Notes: a model not told the origin generated them from the letters alone. 64,000 bases of DNA from Embleya scabrispora (GCF_002024165.1 NZ_MWQN01000001.1:4753501-4817500); one strand, 5' to 3'. Counted from the first letter of the stretch, positions 46,550 through 64,000 are shown. Translations and numbers: made by a program.

Positions 46550-49500
46550 TCAGCCCTGTCGCGGTGGTTGCCAGTCGCCGGGCGGGGGCTGCTGGTAGTA
46601 CGGCTGTTGGGGCTGCGGTTGTTGCGGCTGCGGCTGCGGCTGTTGGTGTTGTGGGTGCGGGTGTTGCGGCTGCTGCGGGTGTTGTTGCTGTTGGTATGGC
46701 TGCTGTTGCGGGTACGGCTGGGGCTGTTGGGGCCCGCCGTAATAGGGCTGCTGCGGCGGCTGTTGTTGGTACTGCGGTTGCCACTGCTGCTGCTGCTCGC
46801 CGGGCTGGGTGCGGTGGAAGTCCTCGGCGACCAGCGCGGCGAGTTCGAAGTACGCCTCGCGGGTCTTGGGGCGCATCATGTCGAGGTCCAACTCGGCGCC
46901 CGCGGACAGGTGTTCGTCGAAGGGGACGACCACGACCGCGCGGCAGCGGGTCTCGAAGTGGGCGACGATGTCCTCGGTCTTGACCATCTTGCCGGTCTCG
47001 CGGACCCCGGAGATCACCGTGATGCTGTTGGCCACCAGGTCGGCGTAGCCGTGTGCGACCAGCCAGTCGAGTGTGGTGCTGGCGCTGGTCGCGCCGTCCA
47101 CGCTGGGCGTGCTGATCACGATCAACTGGTGGGCCAGGTCCAGGACTCCGCGCATCGCGCTGTAGAGCAGGCCGGTGCCGGAGTCGGTCAGGATGATCGG
47201 GTACTGCTTGCCGAGCAGGTCGATCACCGAGCGGTAGTCGTCGTCGTTGAACGTGGTCGAAACCGCCGGGTCCACGTCGTTGGCCAGGATCTCCAGGCCG
47301 CTGGACGACTGTGAGGTGAACCGCCGGATGTCCATGTAACTGTGCACGTGGGCCATCGAGTTGACCAGGTCGCGAATGGTCGCGCCGGTCTCCCGGCGGA
47401 CCCGGCGGCCGAGGGTGCCGGCGTCCGGGTTGGCGTCGATCGCGATCACCCGGTCCTGGCGCTCGGTGGCCAGGGTCGAGCCGAGGGCGGTGGTGGTCGT
47501 GGTCTTGCCGACGCCGCCCTTGAGGCTGATCACCGCGATCCGGTAGCAGCCCAGGACGGGTGTGCGGATGCGTTCGAGGCGTTCGGCGCGGCGGGCGTCG
47601 GCGGACTTGCCCCCGAGCCGGAAGCGCGGGGTCTGCCGACGGGGTTGCGGTTGTTTGCGAAGCAGGCGGTCGCTGGTCAGTTCGACGGCCGCGGTGTAGC
47701 CGAGGGGCGCGCCGCCGACGGTGCGGGCCGGGGCGCCGCCGCCGTCGGGGGACCAGGGCTGCTGCTGGGGTTGCGGGTTGCCCTGGGGCGGAGTGCCCGG
47801 GTGGTAGGGCTGGGGTGCCTCGGGGGGTTGGGCGGCGTACGGGTCGGCCGGGTCGGGGTGTTGGGGCGTGGGGTGACTGGGGTATCCCGGTTGCCCCGGC
47901 TGCGCGGGGTGGGCCGGCTGTCCCTGTGTTCCCGGTGCTCCCTGTGCGCCCGGTGCGGCCTGGGGGCCGGGGGCGCCGTGTGGGGGCGTGCCCTGGTGGG
48001 GCGGTTGGGCGTCGGCGGGAGGTTGGCCGTACGCGGGTTGCTGCGGGGCCGCGGCGCCCTGGGGCGGGGTGCCCTGGGCGTAGGGCGGTTGCGGGTGGCC
48101 GGGGTTCGGCTGTCCGTAGGGGGCGCCCTGGGCGTAGTCCGGTCCCTGGGGGCCGGGGGGTGCCTGGCCGTAGGGCGGCTGACCCGGCTGCGCCTGGGCG
48201 TACGGGTTGGGTCCGCCCTGCTGCGGATCGGGCTGCGGGTACGGGGCGTGTGGCTGCGGGCCGGGGGCACCGTGCGGCGGGGTGCCCTGGGCGTACGGTC
48301 CGGGGGCCTGCTGGTACGGGCCGGGGGCCTGGGCGTAGGGCGGTTGGCCGCCGTGCTGTTCCGGTGCGGTGGCCTGGTCGTTGCCGCCGCCGAAGGCACG
48401 GCGCATCCACGAACGTTCGTCGCGCTGCTGCTGCGGGGGCGCGATCGGCTCGCCACTCGGCGGCGGCAGCGGTTGTCCGGTCGGCGGCGGTGCCGAGCCG
48501 CCCCAGGCCTCGCCGTGTCCGGGAGCGGAGCCGGTCCAGGCCGGCGGCGGCAGCGGCGAACCCTGCGGAGGCGTCATCGGGCGCGGCGGGGCGCCGGCCG
48601 GCGGGCCCTGCTGCGGGACGCCGGGCGGGGCGGCCATGTCGTCGGTGACGGGCGGGATCAGCCGGGTCGCCTGATCGGGCGTCGGGGGGCTTTGCCGACC
48701 GGGATACGGCTGCTGCGGGGCTCCCGGGTGCGCGGGGCCCTGGTATTGCGGGTAGGGCAGCGGCCCGCCCGGGGGCGGGGGCGGCTGCTGGTGTTGTCCG
48801 TAGGGCGGGTATGCGCCGGCGGGCGGTTGGGGTGCCGGGGCGGTCGGCGGGGCCGGGGGCTGAGGCTGCTGCGGTTGGCCGGCGGCCGGTGGTTGCGGCG
48901 GCTCCGGTGCCTGCGGTCCCTGCGGCGGGGCGGGCGGCTGCGCTTCGGCCGCGTACGGCTGCGCCTGGGGGTTCTGGTCGTAGCCCTGCGGCGGTTGTGG
49001 TGGCGGCGCGGGTGTGTCGGCCGGCTTGGTGTGGGGGGCTTCCGGGGCCGCCGGGGACGGTTCGACGGCGGAGAGGCCGGGGATCGGCGTGCCGCCGGCG
49101 GGGGTGGTGGGTACGTCGTGCGGGTCGAACGGCGCGGGTGCGTCCGGGCGGGCTTCCGCGGCCGGGGGCGCCTCGTCGGCGCGGTCGGGTGCGGAGTCGG
49201 GCCGCGGGGCGGCTTCGCCGGGTGGACCGGCGGGCGACTGTTCCGGGGACGCGGCGTCGGTCGGGCGCGCGTCGCCGGCCTCGGCGTCGGGGCGGGGCGG
49301 CTCGACCGGCTCCGGGTGCTCCGGGCCGGGCGGGGCCGCGTCGACCGGAGCGCCGGCGGGCGGGTCGGCGGGACCGGGCTCGGCCGGCTCCGTGGCGGGG
49401 CGGCCCGGGTCGTAGGAGGGCGGTACGACCATGGTCGGGTCGCCGGGCGTGAAAGCCGGGCCGGGGTGGTTCGGGTCGCCGGACGGCGGGACGACGGTGG

Positions 49501-50509
49501 TGCGGTCGTCGGCCGGGGGAGTGGGCTCGGGCCGGCTTTCGTCGAACGACGGCGGGACGACCGTCGTCGGGTCGCCCGGGGCGAAGCTCGGGTCCGGGCG
49601 GCTTTGGTCGTGGGAGGGCGGGACGACCGTCGTCCGGTCGTCCGTCGGTACGAGCCCGCCCGAGTGGTCCCGGTCGAGGGACGGGGGTACGACCATCGTC
49701 GGGTCGCCGGGGGTGAAGGGCTGTTCCGGTCGGTCGTCCTGGGCGGACGACGGCGGGGCGGCCGGGCCCGGGCGGTCCTGATCGGTCACCGGCGGCATCA
49801 CCATGGTCTGGTCGCCGGGGGTGAAGGTCGGGCCGGGGCGATCCTGTGCGGCGGGCGGCTGGCCGCCATACGGCAGGGGGGCCGAGGGCTGGTGCGGGGT
49901 GTACTGCGGCGGGACGACGGTGGTCGGCTCGGCCGAGCCCGCGCCTGCGCCCGAGCCCGCGCCGAACGCGGGCGGGGGCTGGGGCGCGGGCGCGTTCGCG
50001 TCCACGCGGTACGGCGCCGGCGGCTCGGGGTTGGGGTGGGCCTCGCCGGGGCCGGCCGGGCGGTGCGCGCCGTGGTCGACGGCGGCCGGGGGCGCGGGCT
50101 CGTGCGTGCGGGGCTCGTCGGCCGGCGGTCGGTGGGTGGGCTCGTGCGTCGGGGCGCCCGTCCCGGGCAGGCCGGCGGGCGGCGATACCGGTGCGCCGGA
50201 GCCGTACGGGCCCGGGGCGCCGGCGGTCGGGCCGGCCGGGTGCGCGGCGCCGTGGTCCGCCCCGTACGGCAGCGGCGCGGGCGCGTCCGGCGTGCGTGCC
50301 GGCGGCACGAGCGTGGGGTCCTCACTGCCGTAGCGGGGCGCCTGGCTCGGCCCCGGTGGTGCGGGCGCACGGACCCCGGACGGGGGTGGCGCGGGCGCGC
50401 CGCCGTCCTGGTGGGTGTACCACGAGGGCATGGTGAAGTCGGGTCCCGACCACTCCTCTTCCTCGTCCGCCCCCGCCTCGATGTGTGCGCCGTCCTGCTC
50501 GCTGCTCAC
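46550..50509 (-). CDS. EspI-like MinD/ParA-family ATPase with long Pro-rich N-terminus
   Basis: 1319 residues. About 1-960 is low-complexity Pro/Gln/Gly. Within it, eight copies of a roughly 22-residue unit centred on D-x-T-x-V-V-P-P lie between about 65 and 375. A deviant-Walker ATPase follows: [11 protein letters not shown] near residue 990, then [18 protein letters not shown], ending about 1235; then a Gln/Pro tail. This is the layout of mycobacterial EspI, an ESX ATPase with a Pro-rich head. GTG 50509 was chosen because GGAAGGACC lies upstream. Last gene of a three-gene unit with eccE. Its role is probably energy sensing or control of secretion, inferred from EspI. Confidence 0.85.
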
Positions 50510-53032: not shown

Positions 53033-54508
53033 ATGGCATCGCGCCGCGAGCAGCTTGAGGCGTACATCTTCGCGCGCCGCCGGATGGTGGCGGCCTTCCT
53101 GCAACCCGCGCCCGGCGGGGGCACCGAGGAGAACGCCCCCAAGCCGATGCGGATGGTCACCCCCAGCATCGTGGTCGCGATGCTGGTGCTGGCCGGGTTC
53201 GGGGTCGTCGGTCTGATCAAGCCCGGGACGCCGCCCGGTTGGAAGGACAAGAGCAGTCTGATCGTGGGCCGCGACTCGGCCAGCCGATACGTCTTCCTCG
53301 ACGGCAAGCTGCACCCGGTGCTCAACATCGCGTCGGGCCGACTGCTCCTGGACCCGGGCAACTTCAAGGTCAACATGGTGCCGGAGAAGCAGCTCAACAG
53401 CGTGAGTCACGGCGCGCCGCTGGGAATTCCGAACGCGCCGGACCGGCTGCCCACCGCCAAGGAGGTCCGGGGGCGCAAGTCCTGGACCGTGTGCGAGCGT
53501 CCGGCGATCGGCAAGGACGGCAGGCCCGACCCGGCCGGCGAGCCGCAGCGCAGCGTGTTCATCGGCGCGTCCCCCGCGGACGGGCCGCTCGCCCCCGGTC
53601 AGGGGCTGTTCGTGCAGGACCGCAACCAGCGCAAGTACCTCGTCTACCAGGGCAAGCGCTACGCGGTGGAGGCGCCGACGGTGATCGGCGCGCTCAACCT
53701 GGTCGGGATACCTGCGCAGCCGATGAGCGACTCGTGGTTGGCCACGCTGATCGACGGCGGGGTGATCGACCACCCGCTGCCGGCCGACTACGGCAAGCCC
53801 ACCTCGCTGCCGTTGGCCAGGGAGTACAACAGGATCGGCATCGTGCTGCGGGCCGAGGGCGGTGCCCAGCGGCAGAACTACGTGGTCACCAAGGAGGGCG
53901 TGATGCCGATCAGCGAACTGACCGCCGTCCTGCTCACCACGAACCCGAGGGTCAAGGAGGCGTACGGCAACACGCCGCCGAACGCGTTCCCGGTGAACAT
54001 CGGCACGCTCGGCACCGCCGTGGTGCAGGACCGCACCTACGCCGCGGACAAGGGATGGCCGGAGATCCCGCCGACCCCGATGAACCGGATGACCCGCAAC
54101 GACCTGGAACTGCCGCGCAACGTGGTGTGCAACACCTTCGCCGACAACTGGCGCGGCACCCAGCCGGTGACCACGCAGTCCGCGGGGACCCGGCCGCCGG
54201 AGCAACTGGTCGACGGCATGGGCGGGGTGTGGGTCAAGCCCGGCGCGGGGGCGCTGTACCGGGAGGTCACCGGTACGCCAGAGGGTGGTCCGATGTATCT
54301 GGTCGCCGACTCGGGACTGCGCTACAGCGTGCCGGAGGAGGCGCAGACCGGCGGCGGGCAGGCGCAGTCCGGGCAGGAGAGCGAGGCGAAGCAGCGCCTG
54401 GGGTACAAGGGCGTGGAGCCCGCGTCGTTGCCCCGGGCGTGGTCGGAACTGGTGTCCCGCGGACCGCGATTGAGTACGGTCGATGCCAAGAAGCCACAGG
54501 GTTCCTGA
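53033..54508 (+). CDS. eccB: Type VII secretion protein EccB
   Basis: 491 residues. Starts ASRREQLEAYIFARRRMVAA, the family's N-terminal block, with one membrane helix about 43-62 and a large periplasmic part containing NIASGRLLL and NVVCNTFADNW. EccB is the core membrane subunit of the ESX channel. ATG 53033 is preceded by GGGGAGA. The next genes on this strand are the secreted WXG100 pair, after 276 bp holding a good promoter. Confidence 0.9.
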   Translation: MASRREQLEAYIFARRRMVAAFLQPAPGGGTEENAPKPMRMVTPSIVVAMLVLAGFGVVGLIKPGTPPGWKDKSSLIVGRDSASRYVFLDGKLHPVLNIASGRLLLDPGNFKVNMVPEKQLNSVSHGAPLGIPNAPDRLPTAKEVRGRKSWTVCERPAIGKDGRPDPAGEPQRSVFIGASPADGPLAPGQGLFVQDRNQRKYLVYQGKRYAVEAPTVIGALNLVGIPAQPMSDSWLATLIDGGVIDHPLPADYGKPTSLPLAREYNRIGIVLRAEGGAQRQNYVVTKEGVMPISELTAVLLTTNPRVKEAYGNTPPNAFPVNIGTLGTAVVQDRTYAADKGWPEIPPTPMNRMTRNDLELPRNVVCNTFADNWRGTQPVTTQSAGTRPPEQLVDGMGGVWVKPGAGALYREVTGTPEGGPMYLVADSGLRYSVPEEAQTGGGQAQSGQESEAKQRLGYKGVEPASLPRAWSELVSRGPRLSTVDAKKPQGS

Positions 54509-54784: not shown

Positions 54785-55090
54785 ATGGCAGGTGAAGCGT
54801 TCAAGATCACTCCGCAGATGTTGGCGGAGTTGTCGAAGAAGGTTCAGGGTGTCGCGACCGACCTCGAGGCGGCCATCCAGGAGATGAACCGCAAGGTCGA
54901 CGCGATCGAGGGTCAGTGGCAGGGCGCTGCCAGGAACCAGTTCGACCCGCTGCAGGAGCAGGCCGTGCAGAAGGCGCTCGGGGTGAAGCGCGCTCTGGAC
55001 GCCATCTCCGGGGCGATGGGCCACAACGCCAACTCGTACGACCAGACCGAGACGACGGTGTCCGGCAACATCTCGAAGTTGATGTTCTGA
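54785..55090 (+). CDS. WXG100 protein (EsxA/EsxB type), first
   Basis: 101 residues, the WXG100 size. The WXG turn is Trp45-Gln-Gly47, between two helices, and the C-terminal export-type motif is Y85-D-Q-T-E89 (YxxxE). These proteins form heterodimers and leave through the ESX channel. The ATG at 54785 follows GGGGGATGG. The gene for the likely partner is 136 bp downstream. Confidence 0.92.
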   Translation: MAGEAFKITPQMLAELSKKVQGVATDLEAAIQEMNRKVDAIEGQWQGAARNQFDPLQEQAVQKALGVKRALDAISGAMGHNANSYDQTETTVSGNISKLMF

Positions 55091-55226: not shown

Positions 55227-55514
55227 ATGTCGCAGGTAGTTGTCACTTTCGCTGCGCTCGAACAGGCCGCAGCCGATATCCGCGCCCTCAACGCCCGTCT
55301 GGCCGACATGCAGTCGGGTCTGAAGCGGGACATCTCGCCGGTCACCGAGTCGTGGTCCGGTGACGCCCGTGAGGGCTACCTCGTCCAGCAGGCGAGCTGG
55401 GACCAGAACGCGCAGGGGCTGCAGGACGCGCTCAACGGCATCGCCGACGGCCTGATGCGCGCGGCCGACGCCTACCGCCAGACCGAGGCGTCGAACGCCA
55501 AGATGTGGCAGTAG
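55227..55514 (+). CDS. WXG100 protein (EsxA/EsxB type), second
   Basis: 95 residues with Trp43-Ser-Gly45 and the C-terminal motif Y83-R-Q-T-E87. ATG 55227 is preceded by GGGGAGA. It likely pairs with the preceding WXG100 protein. Unusually, both members carry a YxQTE motif; in most pairs only one has the YxxxD/E signal. Confidence 0.92.
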   Translation: MSQVVVTFAALEQAAADIRALNARLADMQSGLKRDISPVTESWSGDAREGYLVQQASWDQNAQGLQDALNGIADGLMRAADAYRQTEASNAKMWQ

Positions 55515-55740
55515 TCGCCGCTTCGTTCCTCGGCGCGGAGCGTCGTCGGCGAAGTGCGCGAGTGCGCGAGTGCGTTGGTGCGTGTGCGAGTGAGTGACGT
55601 GATGTGAGGAGGCGGGCTCGTGCCCGCCTCCTCCCGCGTCCGTCATCGGTCTTACGGGGGCCGGGGACACCCATGAGACGAACCGCCCGGTCCGGTGGAA
55701 CGGGGTCGGGCGGTCGGTGATCCGGAAGGCGAACGAACCG

Positions 55741-56988
55741 ATGCGACCCGTGCGGCGACGGTGGGCGGCACCCCTTCTGGCGCTGGGTCTGGTGCTTCCC
55801 GCCGGATCGGTGGGCGCGGGGGCGGGGGACGCTGCCTCGGCCGGCCGGGGCCCGGTGGACACCACGCTGCTCGCGGGGAGCGACTGCCAGTACCCGTCGA
55901 AGCCGATGCCCGGCAAGCCGTGGTCGTTGCAACGGGTGTTGCTCGACGAGCTGTGGCAGAAGGCGACCGGCAAGGGGGTCACGGTCGCGGTGATCGACAG
56001 CGGGATAGACGACGACAACCCGCAGTTGGCGCCGGCGATCGTGGCCGGCAAGGACTTCTTCAACGACAAGGCGAACGGCACCGACGACACCAACGGCCAC
56101 GGCACGATGGCCGCGGGCATCATCGCGGCCCGGCCCGGGGATCGGCTGACCCCCAGGCTGGAGACCGGATTCGCCGGGATCGCGCCCGAGGCGATGCTGC
56201 TGCCGATCCGGCAGAACGGCGGCGACGACGCGACCAAGGGCAACGAGGACACCCTGGCCCAGGCGATCGACTTCGCGGTCGCGGGGGGCGCCTCGGTGAT
56301 CAACATTTCGCAGGACACCGTGGGCGGCCAGGAGCCGGGCCAAAAGTTGCGGGACGCGATCCAGCGGGCGCTGGCCAAGCAGGTCGTGGTGGTGGCCGCG
56401 GCGGGCAACTCCGGCGACAAGGACAACCTCGACTCGTGGCCCGCGAAGTATCCGGGCGTGCTGGGCGTCGGCGCCGCCGACCGCAACAACGAGCGGGCGC
56501 CGTTCTCGCAGAACAAGCCGTATGTGGGCGTGATGGCGCCCGGCGTGGACATGTGGTCGACGGTCCCCAAGGGCGGCCACTGCCGGGGTGACGGCACCTC
56601 CTTCGCGACGCCGTACGTGGCGGGCGTCGCGGCGCTGATCCGCTCGGCGCACCCCGACTACACCGCGGCCCAGGTCATCACCCTGATCGAACAGACCGCC
56701 CAGCGCACCGCCCCGGGCCACATGGACGGCGTCGGCTGGGGCGTGGTCGACCCCCTGCGCGCCCTCGCCTTCACCGGCGTCCCCGGCTCCGTCCCGGTCC
56801 CCGACCCCAAGGTCGACCGCAGCACGGAACTGGTCAACGTGGCCCCACTGGCCCACGGCCCCACCCGAGCCGACCGCGACCGCCGCAAGGCCTCGGTAAC
56901 CCTCTTCGTCGCGATCGGCCTCACGATCGTGGTGATCAGCGGCGCCATCGTCATCCGCGACGCCCGCAACCACCCTCCGACCGGCTGA
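55741..56988 (+). CDS. mycP: Mycosin, S8-family subtilisin-like protease (MycP)
   Basis: 415 residues. A signal peptide (RRRWAAPLLALGLVLPAGS) leads to a subtilisin domain with Asp86 (AVIDSGID), His120 (NGHGT), Asn223 (AAGNSG) and Ser287 (GDGTSFATP); a C-terminal membrane helix (LFVAIGLTIVVISGAIVI) anchors it. Mycosins stabilise and process at the ESX membrane complex. ATG 55741 is taken because GGAAGG lies upstream; GTG 55717 would add eight residues. Cys49 and Cys281 could form the conserved extra disulfide. Confidence 0.9.
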   Translation: MRPVRRRWAAPLLALGLVLPAGSVGAGAGDAASAGRGPVDTTLLAGSDCQYPSKPMPGKPWSLQRVLLDELWQKATGKGVTVAVIDSGIDDDNPQLAPAIVAGKDFFNDKANGTDDTNGHGTMAAGIIAARPGDRLTPRLETGFAGIAPEAMLLPIRQNGGDDATKGNEDTLAQAIDFAVAGGASVINISQDTVGGQEPGQKLRDAIQRALAKQVVVVAAAGNSGDKDNLDSWPAKYPGVLGVGAADRNNERAPFSQNKPYVGVMAPGVDMWSTVPKGGHCRGDGTSFATPYVAGVAALIRSAHPDYTAAQVITLIEQTAQRTAPGHMDGVGWGVVDPLRALAFTGVPGSVPVPDPKVDRSTELVNVAPLAHGPTRADRDRRKASVTLFVAIGLTIVVISGAIVIRDARNHPPTG

Positions 56989-57079: not shown

Positions 57080-57658
57080 ATGGCTGAGCACAACATTCCC
57101 GACACGAATATAAACCGGGTTCTGTCACCCGAATATTTCCGAGTGGACCCGACCGACCCACCGTCGAATCCACTCCTTTCTGCTCCGGCAGCGCCCCGGC
57201 CACCCATGCCGTCGGCGGACACCGATCCGGCTCTGTTCGATGGTGGGCCCAGGTTCGCCGACAATCCGGACGGTCAGCGGGCGGGGCCAGGGATGAATCA
57301 GATTCTCAGCGGCCCCGGGGCGCGGACGGCATTACCCGAGGTCATGTCTCCTGTCCTTTCGCCCCCGGGGAACAACTTCGCGGTCGATGTCGACAAGCTC
57401 GTTCCTGCGGCCGGCAAGGCAGTCTCCATCGGCCAAGACCTCAAAGCTGTGAGTGGAGACGTGGGCCACGGTCCGCCGATCGGGACGCCGGGCTTCAAAA
57501 CCGGATTCCAAATGGGTGAATTGAGCCGGGAATGGTCGGCCGCGATAATGCGACTGGCGAATGGATGCCAGGCGGCTGCCGACAAGATTTACCGCACCCG
57601 GACAAAGTATCGTGAGAACGAGACCGAATTGAAGACGATGTTCGACGGAAAGTCTTAG
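57080..57658 (+). CDS. WXG-like ESX substrate candidate with N-terminal Pro-rich part
   Basis: 192 residues. The first ~100 are Pro/Asp-rich and look disordered. The last ~90 form a helical hairpin with Trp152-Ser-Ala154 near the turn and the C-terminal Y177-R-E-N-E181 (YxxxE). This matches the look of long ESX substrates, not a known family. The ATG at 57080 has GGAG upstream. The codon use is visibly AT-richer than in the neighbours. Followed 2 bp later by a hydrolase gene, so the two are probably translated together. Confidence 0.65.
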   Translation: MAEHNIPDTNINRVLSPEYFRVDPTDPPSNPLLSAPAAPRPPMPSADTDPALFDGGPRFADNPDGQRAGPGMNQILSGPGARTALPEVMSPVLSPPGNNFAVDVDKLVPAAGKAVSIGQDLKAVSGDVGHGPPIGTPGFKTGFQMGELSREWSAAIMRLANGCQAAADKIYRTRTKYRENETELKTMFDGKS

Positions 57659-57660
57659 AT

Positions 57661-59364
57661 ATGGTCAACTTTGTCGAACTCAGGGATGCAAAATTCGATG
57701 GGTGGCGTGATTTTGCCGCTGCCTGGAGCAAAGCGACCACCCGTCTGCACGACCTGGAGACATCCTTCCGGGCCGGCGTCAACGACGTGGTCGAGCAGGC
57801 CGGGTGGAAGGGTATATCGGCGCAGACCGCCGACAAGGATCTCGAACGTGTCGTTCGACAGATTGCCATCTCCGCCATGCAGGCCCAATCGATAGGATCC
57901 GCTGCCGACCAGGCGGCAGCCGAGATGCCGGTCATCCAGAATGCCTTGCTGACAGTCGTTCGAGAGGCGGAGGCGGCCGGGATAAAGGTCTCGGAGTCGG
58001 GTGGGGGCTACGTCCTCGACACCGCTGCACCTCGTGGCGCAGAAGGCGGAGGGGCTGCTCCCGGAGATCCGGCCAGGATGCAAAGCTTGCTGGATGAATT
58101 CAAGCGGCGCCTGGATACGATAATTCGTCAGGCATGCGAGGTGGATGACAAGCTTGCCGGAGTGCTCGCCGGACTCAATCCCTCGGATGTTGCCGCGACG
58201 GCACTGAACTCGTGGGAAAATGCGCAGGAGGACGCTCGACGCGTCGCCGCTCTACATGGTGTGAACGGCCTTCCGAAAGATATGGACCCCGCTGGATCGG
58301 CGGCCTGGTGGGGAGGGTTGACGGAGGAGCAGCGGCGCCTTTACTTGAGCAGCTACCCGCACGAGATCGGGAGTATGGATGGGATTCCGGCCGCCGACCG
58401 TGACAAGGCGAATCGGAGGGCGCTCGATGCACGCCTGGCCGATTTGTCGGGGCGGCCGCTGAGCGATGGAGAATTCCGGGAGATCAAGAATCTCCAAGCC
58501 ATAGAGTCGGCCTTGACGAAGAACGGGACATGTGCCGCGGACGACTCGGGAATACTGCTGCTGAAGTTCGGCAACAAGTTTCTCGACGGCCAGGTGGTCA
58601 TGTCGATCGGAAACCCGGACCTGGCTAGGCACACCGCAATCCTGGTGCCCGGCACGAATACCGATGTAGCGGGCGGTTTGGAGGGGCAGATGAAGCGTCT
58701 GGACAAGATCCAGGATGCTTCCGACCGGTTGACCCCCCAAGCGGGTGATGTGGCGTCGGTTTTCTGGCTGGACTACGACGCTCCCGAAGCTTCTTTCGGT
58801 GGGATCGACAAGCCTTGGGAATCGAAAGTCTCCAGCGTCGTCGGCTGGGATCGATCGCAGGAGGGAGCGCCGCGTCTCGACACCTTCGTCGGCGGCCTAC
58901 GTGCTCAATCCACGGACCACCACATCAGTGTCGTCGCGCATAGTTATGGGTCGTCACTCCTGGGTGATGCCGGGCGGAAGGGCGACGGCATCGCCGTTGA
59001 CGACATGATCGTGGTGGGGAGCCCCGGCACGCATACCGACAGCGCGGATGACCTGCACATCGACCCACGCCACTTTTGGGCCGAGGTCGCGGACAACGAC
59101 GGAATACCGGGACTGGGCGCGGCAAGTCACGCCGGATGGCAGGCCGAACACGGTAAGACTCTGCCCCACGACAAGGACTTCGGGGGAAATCGGCTCGTGG
59201 CATCACCGGGCGATCACAGTAGCTACTGGAGCATGAATGGCGATCAACCGGAGTCGAGTCTCGAGAACCAGGCAAGAGTGATCATGGGGCTCTACGACGA
59301 TCCCAACCCTGCTCGCCGCCCGGAACTGGAGCACGGTCGGCTTCCGACCGCATCGAAGCCATGA
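57661..59364 (+). CDS. WXG-like head plus DUF1023 alpha/beta-hydrolase
   Basis: 567 residues. The N-terminal ~110 form a WXG-type helical domain (Trp49-Lys-Gly51). The remainder is the DUF1023 alpha/beta-hydrolase, with LTEEQRRLYLSSYPHEIGSM, the LVPGTNTDV strand and the nucleophile segment AHSYGSSLLG (Ser near 428). Enzymes of this family are esterase or lipase-like. The fusion suggests a secreted enzyme carried by the ESX system, acting outside or on other cells. Lower GC than the rest of the locus. Its stop overlaps the ATG of a lipoprotein gene (ATGA). Confidence 0.72.
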   Translation: MVNFVELRDAKFDGWRDFAAAWSKATTRLHDLETSFRAGVNDVVEQAGWKGISAQTADKDLERVVRQIAISAMQAQSIGSAADQAAAEMPVIQNALLTVVREAEAAGIKVSESGGGYVLDTAAPRGAEGGGAAPGDPARMQSLLDEFKRRLDTIIRQACEVDDKLAGVLAGLNPSDVAATALNSWENAQEDARRVAALHGVNGLPKDMDPAGSAAWWGGLTEEQRRLYLSSYPHEIGSMDGIPAADRDKANRRALDARLADLSGRPLSDGEFREIKNLQAIESALTKNGTCAADDSGILLLKFGNKFLDGQVVMSIGNPDLARHTAILVPGTNTDVAGGLEGQMKRLDKIQDASDRLTPQAGDVASVFWLDYDAPEASFGGIDKPWESKVSSVVGWDRSQEGAPRLDTFVGGLRAQSTDHHISVVAHSYGSSLLGDAGRKGDGIAVDDMIVVGSPGTHTDSADDLHIDPRHFWAEVADNDGIPGLGAASHAGWQAEHGKTLPHDKDFGGNRLVASPGDHSSYWSMNGDQPESSLENQARVIMGLYDDPNPARRPELEHGRLPTASKP

Positions 59365-59876
59365 GGGCCGATCGGCTTTTGGCTTCGGTGATCGGTCTGG
59401 TCGTCTTCGGTTCAGCCTGTGGAGGAAATGTGTCCAAAAAGAACGAACCGCTGCGCGTCAAGCCGCTGGAGGAGTCCCGCGCGATTGCGGAGCGGCATGC
59501 TCGGGCGGTGCTGGACGTCATCGGTGCCCCGGTTACGCCGCAGGGAGTCTCCTCCAAGGACGGGCCCTGTGAAAATTCCGACGGAGGTGTCTCCGGGGCC
59601 GACTCCTATTCCCTGCTGCACATGTACAACGTGGTCGTGGCGCCCGCGCGCCAGGTGGAGGTCCTTCGTCGAGTCCGCGACGCGTTTGCGGCGCAGGGGG
59701 TGAGGGTGGCGCAGGACGAGATTTATGACATTCCGGAGAGCCCGGGGGGCAAGGTTTCCGGAGTCGACGAGGCCGACGGCTTTCGGATCCTGGTGAGCAG
59801 TACTTCCCCGCCCGAGCAGATCACGGTCTGGGTGACGTCGCCGTGCTTTGCGAATCCGGGGCAGGGCTCGCGATAA
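59361..59876 (+). CDS. Small lipoprotein, possible partner of the hydrolase
   Basis: 171 residues. Signal peptide with a lipobox-like VFGSAC (Cys20), then a small alpha/beta domain (YNVVVAPARQVEVLRRVRDA, GFRILVSSTSPPEQITVWV). It overlaps the stop of the hydrolase gene by 4 bp, so the two are translated together. By context it could protect the cell or anchor the hydrolase; this is inference, and no known immunity family is recognised. It ends 4 bp before the converging mycosin gene. Confidence 0.65.
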   Translation: MRADRLLASVIGLVVFGSACGGNVSKKNEPLRVKPLEESRAIAERHARAVLDVIGAPVTPQGVSSKDGPCENSDGGVSGADSYSLLHMYNVVVAPARQVEVLRRVRDAFAAQGVRVAQDEIYDIPESPGGKVSGVDEADGFRILVSSTSPPEQITVWVTSPCFANPGQGSR

Positions 59877-59880
59877 CCCG

Positions 59881-61179
59881 TCAGCGCCGGTCGTAGGGGC
59901 CGCTGCCCGGCGGGTGGTAGGTCGGCGGTTGGCTGGGCCACTGGGGTGCGATGGGGGCTTGGCGGCGGGCGAGTTCGCGGGCCCGGCGCCGACGCGTGGC
60001 GATGACACCGGCGCCGGCGGCGAGGGCGACGATGATCGCGGTGCCGACCAGGACCGGAACGACGAGGCCGTCGTCGTTGCCGTCGTCGGACTCGGCGACG
60101 CCCTTCGCCGGTGGCGCGCTCGCGGGCGGGCCCACGGCCGCGGAGGGCGCAGCCGAAGCAGCGGCCGTGGCCGGCCCACTCGGCTTGTCCCCCCGCACCC
60201 CGACAAGCGGATTCACATCGGCCGGCCCAGGCGTGTCGGTCGCAGCAAGCGCCTTGCGGGGGCTCACGGCCCCATAGCCGAAGGTATCCGAAGGCACGGG
60301 CTCGGTAGGCCGATTGGCAGTATCGATCAGCCGCCGAATGACCTGATTAGCCGTCCAATCCGGATGCACCGACCACACAAGCGCGGCCACCCCGGAGGTG
60401 AGTGCGGTGGCATCACTGGACCCGGTGCCAAGGCAGTAATGGGACTGGGTCACGCAAGCTCTCGGGATCTCTTCCCCAGGAGCGCTAAGGGAAATCCATG
60501 GCCCTCGCACACTATTTGTTGCTGGTGCACCATCACGATTTACTGCACTCACGGAGAGAACTCCCGGATAAGCGGCAGGGTATAGCTGTACGCCATCCTT
60601 ATCTGCTGGCGCGTTGCCACCAGCAGCAATGACCATCTTGCCTCTACTCAATGCGTAGGCGACGGATTCTTCCAGAGTCGGGGTGTTAATGCTTGAACCG
60701 ACAGAGAGATTGATAATCTGAGCTGAAGAGTCGGCGGCGAGACGAACACCTTCGGCAAGGGAGGTTTGGTCGACCCCTCCCACCGGAGCCGGGTTTGTGC
60801 GAAAGGGGAGGATCTTGGCTCCTGGAGCTACGCCAAAGACGCCTTGTCCACCCCCTGCTCGGCCTTGCCCCGCGATGAGGCTGGCCATTCCCGTGCCATG
60901 TCCGTTCTGGTCCCCGGGGGCGTTTAGGCTGGGCAAAATCTGTCCGGCGAGATCCTCATGAGTGGCATCGACACCCGAATCCACAACGGCGATGGTGATT
61001 CCTGCGCCACGAGCAGCTTTCCAGACATCATCGATCTTCCACGTGTCCAGATACCACTGCTGTGCACGGATGGAATCGGCTTGTGCCGGTGCAGCGGAAA
61101 TGCTTCCACCAACCAAGATCATTACGAGAAGACCGAGCAGGACAGACGGCCGCGATGCTCGGGTGGGGCGTCCGCTCAT
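59881..61179 (-). CDS. Second mycosin-type S8 protease
   Basis: 432 residues. Signal peptide (VLLGLLVMILVGGSISAAPA), Asp67 (AVVDSGVD), His94 (NGHGT), Asn189 (AAGGN) and Ser255 in GSSDA, where subtilisins usually have GTSxA; a membrane helix lies near 377-400 with an Arg-rich tail. It differs from the first mycosin in the Ser context and lacks its long loops, so it may have another substrate. Lies in the same operon as the long WXG protein and the small 133-residue protein; the middle of the gene (60.4-61.2 kb) is less GC-rich. Confidence 0.85.
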   Translation of the reverse strand: MSGRPTRASRPSVLLGLLVMILVGGSISAAPAQADSIRAQQWYLDTWKIDDVWKAARGAGITIAVVDSGVDATHEDLAGQILPSLNAPGDQNGHGTGMASLIAGQGRAGGGQGVFGVAPGAKILPFRTNPAPVGGVDQTSLAEGVRLAADSSAQIINLSVGSSINTPTLEESVAYALSRGKMVIAAGGNAPADKDGVQLYPAAYPGVLSVSAVNRDGAPATNSVRGPWISLSAPGEEIPRACVTQSHYCLGTGSSDATALTSGVAALVWSVHPDWTANQVIRRLIDTANRPTEPVPSDTFGYGAVSPRKALAATDTPGPADVNPLVGVRGDKPSGPATAAASAAPSAAVGPPASAPPAKGVAESDDGNDDGLVVPVLVGTAIIVALAAGAGVIATRRRRARELARRQAPIAPQWPSQPPTYHPPGSGPYDRR

Positions 61180-61221
61180 CGACGGAGGTGTCCTTCCTGA
61201 GTTACTGACGTGAGGCGCTTG

Positions 61222-62835
61222 TCACTCGATTACCGGTGGTACAACGCCTGGTTGTCGTGGACCATCCCACAGGTTGTCATCATCTTCTTCAGAGCGTGGG
61301 GCTCGTCGTCGTACTTGCTCGGAGCGCGTGCCGCCCGTGAAGGGTGTTCGTTGACCGAAAGGCCGCCTCGGCGTCTGATTCTCCGATGGCGCGTTGTCGC
61401 CTTCGACGGGCAGTGCTCGCAGCCTGGGTGAGTTTCGATTGGATGGGGTTCCCGAGGCATTTCCCACGGAGCCACCTCTTGAGGCTGCGAGTCTCCGACC
61501 CGAGCCACCGGCCGGCGAAGATCCAACTGTGCCTCCTGCGGCGCCCGGAACCCCAGGCATGCCAACCGGACGCCCCTGTGAGCTAGTACTAGATGCATTC
61601 CCCGGCCCGTGTGTAGTCGGGTTGCGCGCTTCGGGACGTCCGGTAAAAGGCCCTTGGCCGCCGCCGAAGCCGGGCGAGGCACCAGTACGCGGCGAAGTTT
61701 TTGGGACGGCCCCGCTTCCACTCGGTACCGCGCCGGGAATGCCTCCGCTGCGCGAAGTTACGCCCGAAGTACTACCACCCGAGGCGCCGGATCGGGGGTC
61801 GTTAACAGTGCGCACGGGGCCAGCGGTGCCGGGGATGATGCCAGGGACTGGGGGACTGCTACCCGGCGGGCCTCCGATAGGTCCGCTGCTACCTGGAACA
61901 TATCCCGGCCCTGATCCCGATCCGCCGTTTCCAGAGGCCTGGGGTGTCCACGGGGTGTCTGCCGTGCCATACGGTGCAGTAAGGGAACTGTTCCCTTGAA
62001 GCTCGGTAGCTTGCGGCACAAAGCGGTGCCCACTCTCTGGCGTGCTGCCGCCGAGAGTTTCAACATGGGGCGAAGCGCCTTGCGGCATGGAGTAGATTCC
62101 CGAGTTCGGGCGACTCGATCCCGGGGTGCGCTTGGTGCCACCGGACTGACTGTCGCTCCCACTAGTCGGGCGACTGTCACTCGACCTGCTACCTGGTCCG
62201 TCAATTGCTTGGTCGCCGTCTCGAAAATCGCCTGGTGGCTGCGGGAACACCGGGGTTGGCAAAGCCTTCAAATCGGACGCTGCCACTCGGTATGTCGATG
62301 CCAGGGTGCGCATTTGGGTTACTGCTTCTCGGTGGGCTGCGTCTACCTGGGCCTTGGCTTCCTGGTGGGCCTTGATGGGGTCCGTGCCGGCCGGGTTGCC
62401 GCCGGTGGGTGGGTTGGTGGCGGCTGAGATCACCGCTACCGGGCCCTGGTTGGCCGTGGCCAGGATTGTTGGGGACACCTGGGGCATGCGCATCTTGGCG
62501 ACGAAGATTTGCTGGCCCACGTGGTTGATGTGGCTGCCGGCTGCCGAGACGTAGTCGCCCAGGCCTGTTGCGGCGGCGGTGACGCTGCCGGCCCACGCGC
62601 GGAAGCTTTCGGCTGCCGGGCCCTCCCAGGCGCCGCCGAGGGCCTGGATGCACTTGGTGAGGCCGTCGGTGGCCGCGTGGATGCGTTGAGCGGTCCCGTG
62701 CAGCCTGTCGGCGTAGACGCCCAGTGCCGAGGGGTTCGCCCCGGCGATCATCGCCTGTAATTGTTCGAGCGTGTATCCCTCGAAGTCGGTTCCGCCGCCC
62801 GTCCCCCCGGTCGGCGCGCCGTCCGCGTGCACCAT
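61222..62835 (-). CDS. Long WXG100-like protein with Gly/Ser/Pro-rich tail
   Basis: 537 residues. The first ~170 form a WXG-type helical domain (Trp70-Glu-Gly72 between two helices, LQAMIAGANPSALGVYADRL before it). After about 200 comes a long, disordered Gly/Ser/Pro-rich tail ending PGVVPPVIE. Resembles the long WXG/PPE-like ESX substrates. The tail is much less GC-rich than neighbouring genes, with varied codons. ATG 62835 has GGGGGGA upstream. Ends 42 bp before the second mycosin gene on the same strand. Confidence 0.7.
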   Translation of the reverse strand: MVHADGAPTGGTGGGTDFEGYTLEQLQAMIAGANPSALGVYADRLHGTAQRIHAATDGLTKCIQALGGAWEGPAAESFRAWAGSVTAAATGLGDYVSAAGSHINHVGQQIFVAKMRMPQVSPTILATANQGPVAVISAATNPPTGGNPAGTDPIKAHQEAKAQVDAAHREAVTQMRTLASTYRVAASDLKALPTPVFPQPPGDFRDGDQAIDGPGSRSSDSRPTSGSDSQSGGTKRTPGSSRPNSGIYSMPQGASPHVETLGGSTPESGHRFVPQATELQGNSSLTAPYGTADTPWTPQASGNGGSGSGPGYVPGSSGPIGGPPGSSPPVPGIIPGTAGPVRTVNDPRSGASGGSTSGVTSRSGGIPGAVPSGSGAVPKTSPRTGASPGFGGGQGPFTGRPEARNPTTHGPGNASSTSSQGRPVGMPGVPGAAGGTVGSSPAGGSGRRLAASRGGSVGNASGTPSNRNSPRLRALPVEGDNAPSENQTPRRPFGQRTPFTGGTRSEQVRRRAPRSEEDDDNLWDGPRQPGVVPPVIE

Positions 62836-63498: not shown

Positions 63499-64000
63499 TC
63501 AGTTGTCCGGCAGCCAGGCCGTCTGGATCAGCTCCACGCCTCGCCGCCGGGTGATCAACTGCCCACGTCCCGGCGGGAGTTGGGTCGGCTTGACGTTGGC
63601 CATCAGGGCGCCCTCGTCCCGGTTGCCGGACAGGATCAGGCCGGACGTGCCCAGGTCGAGGAGCTTTTGCAGCACGGGCTCGTACAGCGCGCGGCCCGCA
63701 CCGCCGCTGCTGCGGGCGATGATCAGGTGCAGGCCCACGTCGCGGGCCAGCGGCAGGAACTCGGCGATGCTGCCCACCGGGTTGCCGCTGGAGGAGGCAA
63801 CCAGGTCGTAGTCGTCGATCAGCAGGAACAGTTCCGGGCCGCTCCACCAGCTCCGGTTGCGCAGCTGTTCCTGCGTCACCTCCGGCCCGGGGAGCCGCCG
63901 TTCGATGCCGCCGCGGATCTCGCCCATGAACGACGTCAGCGCCGGCGCCGCCGCCGCGTACTCCAGCAGGTGCGATTCCGGGACCACGTCCAAGAGCGTG
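63499..64000 (-). CDS. eccC: Type VII secretion ATPase EccC, C-terminal end (gene continues past the window)
   Basis: About 167 residues of the last FtsK/SpoIIIE-type ATPase domain. PELFLLIDDYDLVASSSGNP holds the Walker B strand, HLIIARSSGGAGRALYEPVL follows, and GTSGLILSGNRDEGAL and PPGRGQLITRRRGVELIQTA are typical EccC ends. EccC drives substrate through the ESX channel and binds the C-terminal tails of Esx proteins. Its 5' part and eccD must lie to the right of the window, if present. Confidence 0.9.
   Translation of the reverse strand, partial: TLLDVVPESHLLEYAAAAPALTSFMGEIRGGIERRLPGPEVTQEQLRNRSWWSGPELFLLIDDYDLVASSSGNPVGSIAEFLPLARDVGLHLIIARSSGGAGRALYEPVLQKLLDLGTSGLILSGNRDEGALMANVKPTQLPPGRGQLITRRRGVELIQTAWLPDN

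Follow-up and report, generated by a model that had tools for sequence, protein, structure and literature searches.

The 64,000-nucleotide stretch of Embleya scabrispora DNA analyzed here (NZ_MWQN01000001.1:4753501-4817500, the window) carries an ESX locus in which three genes of the plus strand, at positions 57080–59876, form a compact module. Gene 1 (57080–57658) encodes a partner protein of 192 residues, gene 2 (57661–59364) a protein of 567 residues with a WXG leader and an Abhydrolase_8 hydrolase domain, and gene 3 (59361–59876) a lipoprotein of 171 residues that we propose to be an immunity protein. The spacing agrees with an earlier interpretation made from the DNA alone (the sequence-only reading): genes 1 and 2 are separated by a gap of 2 base pairs (bp), and genes 2 and 3 share a 4-bp ATGA overlap. 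A scan of the module for promoters and terminators gave none above chance.

The AlphaFold2 model of gene 2 has a mean predicted local distance difference test score (pLDDT) of 87. Its leader, comprising residues 1–200 (57661–58260), is a helical hairpin with WKG (49–51) at the turn; helices 13–46 and 52–105 flank the W49-K-G51 motif, with further helices beyond, and G51 is invariant in 38 aligned sequences. The leader profile matches the structures of EsxA and EsxB weakly (E 0.0055), and the match of gene 2 to the Pfam PPE model (E 0.011) falls short of the cut-off. The middle region, residues 201–295 (58261–58545), contains the invariant motif WW(x)GL...GxxDGxP..RD.AN (WW..GL and G..DG.P..RD.AN as a pattern), also present in other effectors of the same leader class. 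The catalytic domain occupies residues 296–567 (58546–59364), with the Abhydrolase_8 match (PF06259, formerly DUF1023) at residues 310–482 (E 9e-31), so that the description of this protein as a WXG-headed DUF1023 hydrolase is confirmed. The C-terminal half of the model resembles esterases, cutinases, and lipase A, the second-best fold match being the esterase PE8. Ser428, in the sequence HSYG, follows strand 421–427, Asp480 follows strand 472–475, and His519 comes next; S428 and H519 are invariant in the 38 sequences and D480 is kept in at least 90% of them. Judged by this order of residues on an alpha/beta hydrolase fold, S428, D480, and H519 form a putative catalytic triad.

The product of gene 1 consists of a Pro-rich N-terminal extension, a helical core of the PE/EspC/EsxB-like type that contains Trp152, and a C-terminal end, ...KYRENETELK, that includes the YxxxE motif Y177RENE181. 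Scans with Pfam and NCBIfam place it in no family of its own. The profile of its family matches the structures of EsxB and PE25 (E 2e-4); among the 26 family members, 12 match EspC, nine match WXG100, and one matches Pfam PE, a model whose cut-off is generally missed. The Pro-rich character and the YxxxE tail ascribed to gene 1 by the sequence-only reading are borne out; on its sequence relationships the protein is better called PE/EspC/EsxB-like than WXG-like. A YxxxD/E motif is found within the last 60 residues of 31 of the 54 upstream partners identified in the survey described below.

The product of gene 3 has a lipobox-like ...FGSAC, with better lipoboxes in many relatives. The protein is predicted to adopt an alpha+beta fold (pLDDT 87), and its cysteines C70 and C162 are both nearly invariant. 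It falls in no Pfam or NCBIfam family, a lone weak match to DUF4972 being found among 36 sequences, and the Pfam scan did not place it in DUF576, the family of the staphylococcal lipoprotein TilA. All fold matches are weak (best E 1.3e-3, template modeling score about 0.3) and include MTC28, DcrB, LpqN, and the Eag chaperones. Candidate relatives of solved structure sought by sequence were rejected, as the matches were weak and only to de novo or unrelated proteins.

The same three-gene arrangement recurs widely in actinomycetes. A second full copy is present in the same genome (C1:2133366–2136009), at a locus common to three Embleya species; the hydrolases of the two copies are 51% identical and the lipoproteins 34%. 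In a survey of 80 named actinomycete loci, which yielded 57 hydrolases with the leader, a small gene lies just upstream of 54 of them, and an open reading frame (ORF) with a lipobox lies just downstream of 47, compared with two of 314 control genes of the same loci (Fisher P 4e-47); the 4-bp overlap of hydrolase and lipoprotein genes is frequent among the copies. Hydrolase–lipoprotein–hydrolase–lipoprotein tandems are also seen in Streptomyces and Saccharopolyspora (loci L158, L165, L173, L190, and others), the second hydrolase often having no leader or a poorly matching one. A mobile-plasmid origin was considered and rejected, the plasmid matches being 25–35% identical and mostly on non-mobilizable replicons.

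The lipoprotein gene is not always single or paired. In the genome SID3343, three tandem lipoprotein paralogues, 28–43% identical, follow one hydrolase, the first of them with no clear signal as read. Orphan homologues with no hydrolase occur at three loci (L209, L210, and L211), one of them adjoining a truncated partner-like gene; the only hydrolase match near the orphan in L211, a single short one inside a LysM/BTAD-like regulator, looks spurious and was discarded. Toxins of the type VIIb secretion system (T7SSb) are known to be accompanied by immunity genes in strings and by immunity islands (PMC9484751; PMC10730906). In Yinghuangia soli (L073:9204-11195), the hydrolase ORF of the module is fragmented and the partner and lipoprotein are kept, a possible step toward an orphan immunity gene.

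In the window, the module fills a slot between two mycosin protease genes, mycP1 on the left (55717–56988, plus strand; TIGR03921, 5e-95) and mycP2, encoding a second mycosin-like protease, on the right (59881–61179, minus strand), the latter convergent with gene 3 and only 4 bp from its stop codon. The contents of this slot differ among the ESX loci of the four Embleya genomes compared. E. hyalina has the same module, with a hydrolase 91% identical to gene 2; it and E. scabrispora are the nearest relatives, in keeping with a place in the genus Embleya, family Streptomycetaceae. In the comparison genome of E. scabrispora, the similarity ends at 56967 and restarts at 59879, with ~700 bp between, in which no remnant of the module was detected. 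In SID3343, the slot encodes a partner-like protein of 122 residues and a 423-residue protein that combines a PF21725 T7SS_signal domain with a hydrophobic tail, as well as other small proteins, of which two contain hydrophobic segments. Since the slot holds the module, no module, or a different effector, while eccB, esxA, esxB, and mycP1 are present in all four genomes, the suggestion of a swapped-in cargo cassette is supported, and the comparison proposed along with it gave a variable segment among constant secretion genes. Beside the partner-like and T7SS_signal proteins, the SID3343 slot (L081:8698-11724) has two of 241 and 200 residues, the latter with a hydrophobic segment; its cargo is possibly a membrane-acting effector with its immunity protein.

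The base composition of the module cannot by itself serve as a marker of the cassette. Against a background of 106 genes from the window and three 20-kilobase (kb) stretches, with mean G+C content (GC) of 71% and mean third-position GC (GC3) of 0.91, the module genes have GC of 61–66% and GC3 of 0.69–0.80, so that the low GC noticed in the sequence-only reading is real. As evidence of swapping it is weak, because GC3 is at its lowest in the ESX locus in the neighboring mycP2 and PPE-like genes, conserved in relatives (0.65–0.66, and 0.65–0.78 in the relatives); low GC as proof of recent exchange was therefore rejected. Among the genes compared with E. hyalina, synonymous divergence is ~0.12 in eccB and mycP1, rises to 0.37–0.42 in genes 2 and 3, and reaches ~1.0 in mycP2 and the PPE-like gene. 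As it is raised in genes 2 and 3 and in both of these neighbors, the whole stretch 57080–62835 is fast-evolving. The mycP2 and PPE-like pair (59881–62835) looks as if it had been exchanged independently of the module. The ratio of nonsynonymous to synonymous divergence (dN/dS) is 0.12 for gene 2 and 0.21 for gene 3, indicating purifying selection in both. These values bear on the weakest alternative, a decaying or neutral low-GC insertion unconnected to the ESX system, which would suit the low GC3 and the absence of the module at this site in the E. scabrispora comparison genome, and which we regard as very improbable given three intact ORFs, purifying selection on genes 2 and 3, conserved catalytic residues, and a leader that is strictly associated with eccB.

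That association was found in 150 Streptomycetaceae genomes, where the leader is present in 103 of 136 genomes with eccB and in none of 14 without it (Fisher P 2e-8). Kinship among the genomes was controlled in part, through tests within genera, and the association also holds within genus g6 (P 0.03) and genus g9 (P 0.001). The leader is not confined to hydrolases. In a plasmid of S. decoyicus (NZ_CP108348.1, L192:3671-5688), a Tox-REase-2 domain replaces Abhydrolase_8 after about residue 337, the breakpoint lying just past the first strands of the hydrolase, with a partner gene upstream and a gene for a 125-residue protein with no signal peptide downstream. The same leader precedes an Amidase_6/CHAP C terminus in L195 and L202, with a membrane protein next in line; a DUF6973 C terminus in L205, with a lipoprotein next; and a DUF6571 C terminus in L197 and L206. 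In this small sample, the type of downstream protein fits the expected site of the toxin, with no signal for a cytoplasmic one and a lipoprotein or membrane protein for one acting in the envelope. Leader proteins with Amidase_6/CHAP, DUF6973, or DUF6571 regions, taken together (L195, L202, L204, L205, L197, L200, and L206), mostly stand between a partner and a small downstream protein and look like additional types of ESX effectors.

Pairwise distances in 38 non-redundant triples of partner, hydrolase, and lipoprotein reveal that the two halves of gene 2 diverge with different neighbors. Lipoprotein distances follow those of the catalytic half (r 0.87; partial correlation 0.77 given the leader), and partner distances follow those of the leader (r 0.88; partial correlation 0.79 given the catalytic half), whereas the cross partials are 0.24 and 0.05, and for each of the two differences zero falls outside the bootstrap interval. 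This is the pattern expected of an export pair formed by partner and leader together with a toxin–immunity pair, and it supports contact within each, short of proof.

We consider that the cassette probably encodes a toxin of the lipase or esterase type exported by a type VIIa secretion system (T7SSa), together with its export partner and an extracytoplasmic immunity lipoprotein. Computation establishes the anatomy, the conserved operon, the variable slot, the swapping of the leader, the co-divergence, and the co-occurrence with eccB; from these we infer export, lipid activity, toxicity, and inhibition by the lipoprotein. The PE/EspC-like product of gene 1 would pair with the WXG hairpin at the N terminus of gene 2, and the neighboring ESX machine would export the pair by way of the YxxxE motif of the partner. 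Once outside the cytoplasm, the serine alpha/beta hydrolase, most likely a lipase or an esterase, would attack the envelope lipids of competitors, and the gene 3 lipoprotein, placed on the outer face of the producer membrane, would neutralize it there. The idea that the lipoprotein may be an immunity protein, already voiced in the sequence-only reading, gains indirect support from several features: it is paired with the hydrolase almost without exception, has tandem and orphan copies, and diverges in step with the catalytic half, and other toxin domains are accompanied by other downstream proteins.

Several observations weigh against this interpretation. The FGSAC of gene 3 fits the broad actinobacterial lipobox pattern, not the strict one; none of the proteins that its fold weakly matches is a proven lipase immunity protein; and its dN/dS of 0.21 relative to E. 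hyalina carries no sign of positive selection. No downstream lipobox is detectable for 10 of the 57 hydrolases, although some starts may be misplaced. Most copies of the module lie away from ESX loci: among full-length matches in 61 genomes, a count limited by draft assemblies, only the two Embleya copies are within ~20 kb of eccB, and for most copies the ESX machine would have to act in trans. Finally, because the partner adjoins the leader and the lipoprotein adjoins the catalytic half, the same pattern of co-divergence could arise with no contact between the proteins, through linkage combined with recombination midway along gene 2.

Some of these points suit a different role, in which an ESX-exported hydrolase would serve the envelope or nutrition of the producer itself, in lipid turnover or ester degradation, and the lipoprotein would be a surface partner, a foldase, or a regulator. 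Such a role would accord with a fold akin to cutinases and secreted esterases, with an operon that is very widespread and often far from ESX loci, and with the weak lipoprotein matches to LpqN, MTC28, and DcrB, which are envelope proteins with no known immunity role, as well as to the Eag chaperones. However, the use of the same leader by nuclease toxin and amidase domains, the lipoprotein tandems and orphans, and the presence, absence, or replacement of the module in the slot better suit conflict systems, and we consider this role credible but unlikely. Less probable still, to the point of being doubtful, is an effector directed at hosts or predators, that is, a lipase acting on amoebal, fungal, or plant membranes, with a lipoprotein that only anchors or stores it. 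Embleya shares its soil habitat with fungi and protozoa, and mycobacterial PE/PPE proteins include secreted esterases, PE8 among them as the second-best fold match. Such an effector would have no need, though, for a lipoprotein of its own that co-diverges with it and has paralogues in tandem or as orphans, and the sister protein that joins the leader to Tox-REase-2, followed by a signal-less protein, is as expected of antibacterial toxins.

The favored toxin–immunity reading has a close parallel in Staphylococcus aureus, where the T7SS phospholipase TslA is bound (Kd 14 nM) and inhibited by the lipoprotein TilA (PMC10730906). Both systems combine a lipase-type hydrolase, export by a T7SS, and small helical partners (TlaA1 and TlaA2 in the T7SSb of S. 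aureus; PMC10730906), the activity and the export being predicted in the case of the module. In both, the cognate or presumed inhibitor is a lipoprotein, multi-copy and strain-variable for TilA (PMC10730906) and found as tandems and orphans here. The domain order is reversed, however, TslA having the hydrolase first and a helical LXG-like targeting domain last, whereas in gene 2 the leader (1–200) precedes the hydrolase (296–567). TslA has two partners and belongs to T7SSb, compared with one PE/EspC-like YxxxE partner and T7SSa here, and TilA is a DUF576 protein, unlike the present pairing of an Abhydrolase_8 hydrolase with a lipoprotein family that has no Pfam or NCBIfam model. Since domain order, machinery, and lipoprotein family all differ, the cassette lies outside the TslA family.

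The mycobacterial PE/PPE proteins, PE-PPE-domain esterases, and EspC are similar in joining a YxxxD/E helical partner to a WXG/PPE-like hairpin protein with a C-terminal alpha/beta hydrolase, encoded in or near ESX loci. The module differs in its adjacent lipoprotein, in a catalytic domain of PF06259 and not PE-PPE, and in matches to the Pfam PE and PPE models that mostly stay below the cut-offs. The WXG/LXG polymorphic toxins, including Tox-ABhydrolase-3 (Zhang et al. 2012, PMC3482391), likewise have one leader, exchangeable C-terminal toxins, and a downstream immunity gene, and the available part of that paper already proposes alpha/beta hydrolases as lipid-acting toxins in WXG systems. The leader here is distinct in including the WWxGL middle region, to about residue 295. 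Neither DUF1023/Abhydrolase_8 nor lipoprotein immunity is among the hydrolase toxins in that part of the paper, relative to which this family of hydrolases and its lipoprotein both seem new to WXG polymorphic toxins.

Antibacterial T7SS toxins are well established for the T7SSb of Bacillota, whereas the cargo of Streptomyces-like ESX systems is largely unknown; no interbacterial role for the T7SSa of such actinomycetes was found in the literature searched, nor any functional study of DUF1023/PF06259 in bacteria in titles and abstracts. If correct, the proposed reading would say what two families do, the large Abhydrolase_8/DUF1023 family and an unnamed one of lipoproteins, would account for their frequent adjacency, and would provide a directly testable toxin–immunity pair in tractable soil bacteria. 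We can speculate, with about even confidence, that the T7SSa of non-mycobacterial actinomycetes are general antibacterial weapons, in which the WXG hairpin and WWxGL leader with a PE/EspC-like partner would deliver many exchangeable toxins, DUF1023 hydrolases being a common warhead met by an undescribed family of immunity lipoproteins.

The ESX locus around the module has the order eccE, eccB, two WXG100 genes, mycP1, module, mycP2, a PPE-like gene, a gene for a 133-residue protein, and eccC. On the plus strand lie eccB (53033–54508) and the genes for the esxA-like (54785–55090) and esxB-like (55227–55514) WXG100 proteins. On the minus strand, the fast-diverging PPE-like protein (61222–62835) has a WXG head and a Pro/Gly-rich tail, and the C-terminal end of eccC (63499–63987) runs on past the window; in E. 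hyalina, the rest of eccC is followed by eccD. To the left of eccE, the minus strand encodes a protein of 1319 residues (46550–50509) with a MinD/ParA-like ATPase domain at ~990–1230, possibly an EspI-like ESX-associated protein, in a region with GC up to 81% and a strong skew.
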